NCBI GenBank assembly: GCA_002457305.1
Contig: NTKG01000003.1
Coordinates: forward strand, 1 to 51,875
Reading direction: 5' to 3'
DNA from: Bacteroidetes bacterium MED-G21
GTDB lineage: Bacteria; Bacteroidota; Bacteroidia; Flavobacteriales; UBA7430
Length of the DNA: 51,875 bases
In this document: piece by piece, positions 27,895 through 28,525 of the stretch
Layout of the letters: each line of letters opens with the position of its first letter
How positions within the stretch are numbered: the stretch's first letter is position 1
Notes under the pieces: generated by a model
Databases searched by the model: none
What the model was told of the DNA's origin: nothing
The model's input: the letters and a program-made list of their open reading frames with translations, nothing else
Made by a program: the position numbers and the translations under genes

Positions 27895-27922
27895 AAACAA
27901 AAAGCCCCGTCTAAACAAGGCC
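27895..27922 (-). terminator. Terminator after the 78-residue membrane protein
   Basis: On the minus strand GCCTTGT, short loop, ACGGGGC (two G-T pairs) is followed by TTTTTGTTTT. Confidence 0.7.
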
Positions 27923-27945
27923 TGATCAATAATTATTTGGCCCTT

Positions 27946-28182
27946 TTATTGTTTCTTAAAAACAGAATACAAAACCAATAATGTCGCTATTCCAATAAAG
28001 TTACTTTGACCCATTGAATTAATAGCGCTTTGTAAATTTTTAATTGGGTTCCACCCAAAAAGACTCTCTCCAACGATTAGTTGAACCACAACGCCTAAGC
28101 ATAAAAGAGGTACCGCAACATCTAAGGCGCCTCGTAAATACTTTCGGGTTAACTTGAGCTGTTCTTTAAGTTTTTCTCCCAT
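27946..28182 (-). CDS. Small two-helix membrane protein, second of a paralogous pair
   Basis: 78 residues: a charged N terminus (MGEKLKEQLKLTRKYLRG), helix 1 (VAVPLLCLGVVVQLIVG), a loop with GWNPI, and helix 2 (FIGIATLLVLYSVF) ending KKQ. From LxLGVxxQ to the C-terminal Lys residues it aligns with the upstream 73-residue protein with about one gap, so I infer paralogy. Size and topology recall holins, VirB2-like pilins or filamentous-phage coat proteins, but no such neighbours exist. Its start lies 16 bp after a strong hairpin, and no separate promoter was seen, so it probably depends on read-through from the upstream gene. Function unknown. Confidence 0.7.
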   Translation of the reverse strand: MGEKLKEQLKLTRKYLRGALDVAVPLLCLGVVVQLIVGESLFGWNPIKNLQSAINSMGQSNFIGIATLLVLYSVFKKQ

Positions 28183-28197
28183 TTCTTTATTGTTTAA

Positions 28198-28236
28198 ATA
28201 ATTAAAGCCCTCATTTAAAATGAGGGCTTTAATTAT
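28198..28236 (-). terminator. Perfect 19-bp inverted repeat between the two small membrane-protein genes (terminator/attenuator)
   Basis: ATAATTAAAGCCCTCATTT and AAATGAGGGCTTTAATTAT flank a single base. The GC core followed by T-rich sequence makes an intrinsic terminator on either strand. It sits 5 bp after the stop of the first gene and 15 bp before the start of the second. Confidence 0.85.
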
Positions 28237-28241
28237 GTTAA

Positions 28242-28463
28242 TTATTTTTTACCCATAAAGGATAAAATTACTAGTAATGCTACTAATCCTGCGAGATCTG
28301 CTGATGCAAATCTAGACACTAGACCCGATATAGAGCCAATAACATCCATTCCGCCCCAGCCTATTCCTAAAACTTGAGCTGTTATTCCAAGCCCTATTAA
28401 AGACATTAATAAAGCTGTTAAACCTGAGATTAAATCTCCTAGCATTTTAAAAGCGTTAGCCAT
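28242..28463 (-). CDS. Small two-helix membrane protein, first of a paralogous pair
   Basis: 73 residues: MANAFKMLGDLISG, helix 1 (LTALLMSLIGLGITAQVLG), a Gly-rich loop (GWGGMDVIG), a short amphipathic stretch (SISGLVSRFASADL) and helix 2 (AGLVALLVILSFM) ending GKK. No signal peptidase site is obvious. A textbook TTTG-N21-TATATTTG promoter lies 30 bp upstream and a hairpin follows directly, so it may be expressed strongly as a short transcript. I do not recognise the family. Pilin-like, holin-like or ring-forming small subunits are possible shapes, without supporting context. ORF reality is supported by the promoter, terminator and similarity to the next gene. Confidence 0.75.
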   Translation of the reverse strand: MANAFKMLGDLISGLTALLMSLIGLGITAQVLGIGWGGMDVIGSISGLVSRFASADLAGLVALLVILSFMGKK

Positions 28464-28492
28464 AACAATTTATTTTTATTAGTTAATACGTT

Positions 28493-28525
28493 CAAATATA
28501 AGAACATAGGAATTTCCCCACCAAA
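28493..28525 (-). promoter_or_regulatory. Canonical promoter of the small membrane-protein pair
   Basis: Minus-strand TTTG, 21 bp, TATATTTG; the -7 box ends about 30 bp before the ATG. Confidence 0.8.

Follow-up and report, generated by a model that had tools for sequence, protein, structure and literature searches.

In pufBA-type operons, an intercistronic hairpin, which acts mainly via mRNA stability, sets unequal amounts of small membrane-protein subunits. The bacterial gene pair described here (genes A and B) also has an intergenic hairpin, but the encoded proteins are unrelated to those of pufBA. Class II holins (S21 type, from phage 21) possess two membrane helices, an N-in/C-in topology and charged ends (PMC9636201). 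The A and B proteins resemble them by their size (about 70-80 aa), their two helices and their charged ends, and their phage relatives are encoded beside spanins in two lineages. However, A and B do not match any sequence family, their genes are chromosomal, inherited vertically and arranged in tandem on either side of a terminator, and no endolysin or spanin gene adjoins the bacterial pair. CidA and LrgA from Staphylococcus aureus provide a precedent for cellular holins with a role in transport (PMC8805020). Like A and B, these proteins of cellular role are chromosomally encoded, related to each other and holin-like, but they belong to a different family and are encoded by separate operons with CidB and LrgB partners, whereas A and B have no such partner. 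Furthermore, F1 mycobacteriophages encode two small membrane proteins, LysF1a and LysF1b, in one lysis cassette, one of them having two helices and an N-in/C-in topology (PMC13056207). Two small membrane proteins per cassette are also found in two of the phages analyzed here (L410 and L416), a likeness of arrangement that need not reflect homology, whereas the bacterial A and B are two two-helix paralogs.

No description of the A-B pair was found in the literature. Our preferred reading, to which we give a probability of roughly 0.42, is that A and B represent an undescribed family of two-helix proteins of about 70-80 residues, probably N-in/C-in, that works like class II holins, A being the major subunit and B the minor one.

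Genes A and B and their origin

The window, i.e. the whole stretch of 51,875 nucleotides that was analyzed, is one contig of a 1.4 Mb genome (73% complete) of the order Flavobacteriales. The two ORFs reported by an earlier note on this DNA were found where it had placed them, on the minus strand; therefore, gene A (73 aa, 28242-28463), encoding the presumed major subunit, is upstream of gene B (78 aa, 27946-28182), encoding the presumed minor one. Both annotations rely on homologs, structure models and dN/dS, and that of B also on profiles. The common traits already noticed, namely the LGITAQ / LGVVVQ motif, a GW in the loop, a second helix and a Lys-rich end, were all confirmed. Both genes are under purifying selection (dN/dS of 0.02-0.20 for A and 0.06-0.16 for B) and are paired in all 61 readable loci (see below), which rules out spurious ORFs and bears out the claim that A and B are real genes. 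In one locus from the genus of the window (L062:5990-6010), the start of B lacks an in-frame ATG; an ATG is present with a shift of one base, suggestive of a single-base error in the assembly.

Plain BLASTP did not align A with B. However, queries with A retrieved the B proteins of relatives and queries with B retrieved their A proteins (E-values of 1e-4 to 1e-7), and the profiles of the two families aligned over 74 columns with an E-value of 1.4e-15, compared to 0.11-0.27 for reversed profiles and 0.002 for the best of 60 hydrophobicity-preserving column shuffles. In the tree, whose details are weak and which is based on few columns, all A proteins form one group and all B proteins another (support 94/89 and 93/86), indicating a single duplication that preceded the split of the host families. 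The duplication that had been suspected from the window is therefore borne out, and A and B are paralogs that go back to a single old duplication.

In the models of both proteins (pLDDT of 79.6 for A and 78.4 for B), a long N-terminal helix is followed by a loop, then by a short helix and finally by a second membrane helix; taken together with the sequences, the models place the helices at residues 2-32 and 57-70 of A and 3-37 and 60-77 of B. A and B thus have two transmembrane helices within about 65-95 residues, as class II holins do. Their positively charged ends fit, by eye, the positive-inside rule, and the topology is probably N-in/C-in. A fold search with the model of A did not retrieve any match from PDB or BFVD.

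As claimed previously, the pair belongs to no known family: searches of Pfam, PHROG, NCBIfam and PDB gave no matching family. The Pfam near-matches, PUNUT, Pox_A14 (E-value of 0.003) and Holin_SPP1 (E-value of 0.013), are below the cut-off and scattered over the members, and were rejected. Holin_SPP1, found in two of 108 members, is the best hit to described holin families, PHROGs giving none. Neither Pfam nor NCBIfam places A or B in the CidA/LrgA family. Concerning VirB2/TrbC-type pilins, there is no Pfam match, a TrwL chain reaches only an E-value of 0.93, and the neighbors are housekeeping genes without any secretion gene. Concerning c-type ring subunits of ATP synthase, there is no Pfam match and no invariant membrane carboxylate, the polar residue of helix 1 being Q in all B proteins and E, Q, D or T in A proteins.

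Promoter, intergenic hairpin and expected A:B ratio

The promoter of A (28493-28525, minus strand) comprises a -33 TTTG (28525-28522) separated by 21 nt from the -7 element TATATTTG (28500-28493). It matches the Bacteroidetes consensus (-33 TTTG and -7 TAnnTTTG; PMC2483708), so that the full-consensus promoter announced by the earlier note does exist, but it is not sigma-70-like and a sigma-70 scan found none at this place. A TAnnTTTG is located at 80 nt or less from A in 58 of the 61 loci, nearly always 35-39 nt from the ATG, whereas it is similarly placed before 33 of 606 other genes. This promoter is presumed to be strong and of housekeeping type.

The perfect hairpin described between the two genes is present (28198-28236, minus strand), but it has 18 pairs and a 3-nt loop and not 19 pairs. 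This terminator-like structure, which is presumed to be an attenuator, folds at -23.7 kcal/mol (z = -7.8). Its conservation is complete, since a hairpin was found in 61 of 61 homologous A-B gaps. Long stems (at least 13 pairs, at least four of them G-C) are present in 58 of these gaps, from loci related to one another, compared to one in a small set of 20 co-directional control gaps taken from the fetched loci. Among relatives, the stems have diverged on both sides with, by eye, retention of pairing. Another terminator-like hairpin, with nine pairs followed by a T-rich tail, is visible in the sequence 3′ of B (27902-27923, minus strand).

A TAnnTTTG lies between the hairpin and B in only 19 of the 61 loci (such as L009, L020 and L022), and B may have gained or lost a promoter of its own depending on the lineage. 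In the family of the window, the distance from hairpin to B is only 12-15 nt, which is too short for a promoter; there, B would therefore need read-through (or processing). The promoter before A, the hairpin and the lack of room before B make it likely that the A product exceeds the B product. In five of six genomes, with one contrary case, the codon usage of A is nearer to that of ribosomal proteins than the codon usage of B is, which would weakly back this imbalance. We propose that the strong promoter drives transcription of A, that the conserved hairpin stops most transcripts, and that B would be made in lesser amount by read-through and, in about one third of the relatives, possibly from its own promoter.

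Distribution in bacteria and phages

Among 60 relatives, A is present in 20 and B in the same 20, side by side. Scanning a genome collection with the B profile gave 62 loci, nearly all from uncultured marine or lake genomes. The association noticed in the window is conserved, A being directly upstream of B in all 61 readable loci; the 62nd match reaches the end of its contig, gave no pair and was left out. An order-wide scan of 398 genomes revealed 69 matching genomes, belonging to four families of Flavobacteriales plus one outlier (G325), whereas only the window's own genome matched in a phylum-wide draw of 396 genomes. The matching genomes are about 0.8-2.0 Mb in size. The outlier match (L155; G325:C9, 1-20000) was rejected as a cellular homolog, as it is a misbinned phage contig encoding a polynucleotide kinase and an endonuclease VII.

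Outside the family of the window, the pair is convergent with polA, which is directly beside B in 54 of 55 loci. In the family of the window, coaX flanks the pair on one side and a phosphomannomutase-type gene on the other, and polA, where visible, is 2-3 kb away. No constant neighbor other than polA was found among the loci compared. This polA-linked synteny within a housekeeping region indicates that the pair is vertically inherited, and rules out a prophage remnant. One locus registered under the name Chryseobacterium gleum (L118, CAMBDW010000006.1) carries the A-B pair and the polA synteny typical of uncultured Flavobacteriales, and the species name is probably wrong.

The absence of phage and secretion genes from the vicinity, emphasized in the earlier note, holds for the window, where the neighbors are housekeeping genes, but members of the family are abundant in marine phages. 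The A profile gave no match when run against viral contigs; the phage protein of the misbinned contig retrieved 186 viral contigs and an alignment query at least 559 marine viral contigs. In the named-phage collection, no member reached a meaningful E-value, nor was anything significant found in PHROG. The phage homologs have 77 aa with a mean column identity of 81%; their profile matches A with an E-value of 8e-15 and B with one of 3e-12, compared to 6e-4 or more for reversed or shuffled controls. They form a large clade on a long separate branch of the tree. Only one viral contig close to the bacterial proteins was found, an IMG/VR contig (L154) judged to be T4-like from its tail sheath and tail tube; its single copy lies between tail-tube and baseplate-hub genes and branches between A and the remaining rows of the tree.

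Most of the phage copies have no lysis gene nearby and occur singly within blocks of late structural genes. Copies were seen downstream of the major capsid or tail-tube gene, in the baseplate region, or near DUF1127 or ALA-synthase-like genes. The typical copy is a single gene with a strong Shine-Dalgarno site and often a terminator after it, and a CTAAATA motif resembling T4 late promoters is present at several copies. To our knowledge, Bacteroidetes genes are devoid of Shine-Dalgarno sites. In a series of marine phages (L164-L195), genes encoding DUF1127, DUF454 and ALA-synthase-like proteins surround the homolog, which hints at alphaproteobacterial hosts.

Lysis cassettes and possible roles of the pair

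In three phage contigs (L200, L214 and L218), the gene order is homolog, 52-aa membrane protein, i-spanin and o-spanin. The i- and o-spanin genes beside phage homologs overlap, and those of L200 match PHROG Rz-like spanins (E-values of 2.3e-7 and 3.9e-5). The family of the 52-aa neighbor led to a second, more divergent phage lineage, in which seven of eight loci have the homolog, the small neighbor and spanin genes clustered in a stretch of about 2 kb; the remaining locus is cut off, and some loci are near-copies of each other. PHROG spanin E-values are 3.6e-18 / 3.2e-15 for L409, 9.6e-11 / 5.1e-6 for L410 and 1.5e-8 / 3.6e-9 for L416. Profiles built solely from bacterial proteins recognize the lysis-cassette homologs (E-values of about 1e-14 for A and of 1e-7 to 2e-11 for B). 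Lysis-cassette position is thus found in phage homologs of two lineages and not in the bacterial pair. From the pilin-, holin- or ring-like assembly initially guessed, the holin has gained evidence by these relatives and the pilin has gained none.

The holin-like reading is favored because the phage homologs adjoin a second tiny membrane protein and spanins, and because A and B agree with the definition of class II by their size, their two helices and their positively charged ends. In the cytoplasmic membrane, the helical hairpins of A and B would oligomerize to form a channel, a raft or a ring, which B would join as a minor or regulatory subunit. Given its vertical inheritance and its housekeeping-type promoter, the pair is more likely, by analogy with CidA/LrgA, to be a tame permeability or transport device than a lysis gene. 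However, several points count against a holin-like function: (i) the phage copies are unusually conserved for a holin, (ii) most of them are away from lysis genes and no match to a holin family exceeds the cut-off, (iii) a chromosome would be an unusual place for a lethal pore under strong transcription, (iv) the second small phage protein could be the holin instead of the A/B homolog, and (v) the holins for which T4-like phages are known are of class III (PMC9636201).

The signals for strong expression as a single gene, seen in hosts and in phages, the phage copies located after the major capsid or tail-tube gene and the very high conservation in phages would also suit an abundant membrane protein with a structural or scaffolding function. 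In that case, a non-conducting ring, raft or lipid-organizing assembly would be formed by A with some B, and the phage copy would serve head assembly at the membrane or upkeep of the host membrane and not lysis; the fixed lysis-cassette position in two phage lineages makes this rather unlikely. Tiny two-helix proteins are often subunits of larger membrane complexes, and A and B could be small accessory subunits of an inner-membrane complex (transporter, respiratory or secretion) encoded elsewhere, with which the unlinked housekeeping neighbors agree. That the single-copy phage homologs occur in several unrelated contexts without common complex genes, and that polA is the sole constant neighbor, argue against such subunits, which we consider improbable.

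The presence of the same family in phages and hosts, and the T4-like contig whose copy branches between A and the other rows of the tree, raise the idea that A and B are cellular antiholin-like relatives that co-assemble with the phage holin-like homologs and shift lysis timing. This is very doubtful: this contig is the only viral one that was found to be close to the bacterial proteins, the long-branched phage clade has DUF1127 and ALA-synthase neighbors suggesting other hosts, and no defence gene was found near the pair in the window. Little credence is likewise given to a constitutive, vertically inherited cellular holin/antiholin-type pair, with an A:B ratio set by the attenuator, that would gate the inner membrane in small-genome aquatic Flavobacteriales and could mix with homologous phage lysis proteins; if true, the lysis clock would have parts common to host and phage.

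The unnamed family extends over the above marine viral contigs and four families of small-genome aquatic Flavobacteriales. If A and B are holin-like, many uncultured marine phages would gain a candidate lysis protein, and the bacterial pair would be an example of two membrane subunits whose ratio appears to be set by a conserved terminator between their genes.

The small neighbor of the lysis-cassette homologs (a membrane protein of about 53 aa) defines another unnamed family of marine phages, present in at least 490 viral contigs (e.g., L222:6266-6427, L200:6260-6418 and L416:1389-1550) and located at 3 kb or less from a spanin or endolysin gene in 19 of the 80 loci read; this context makes it a holin or antiholin candidate of its own. 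A lipase-like gene (GHSLGG) is found after the spanin pair or near the homolog in several phage contigs (L416:2493-3497; L187:10940-11725).
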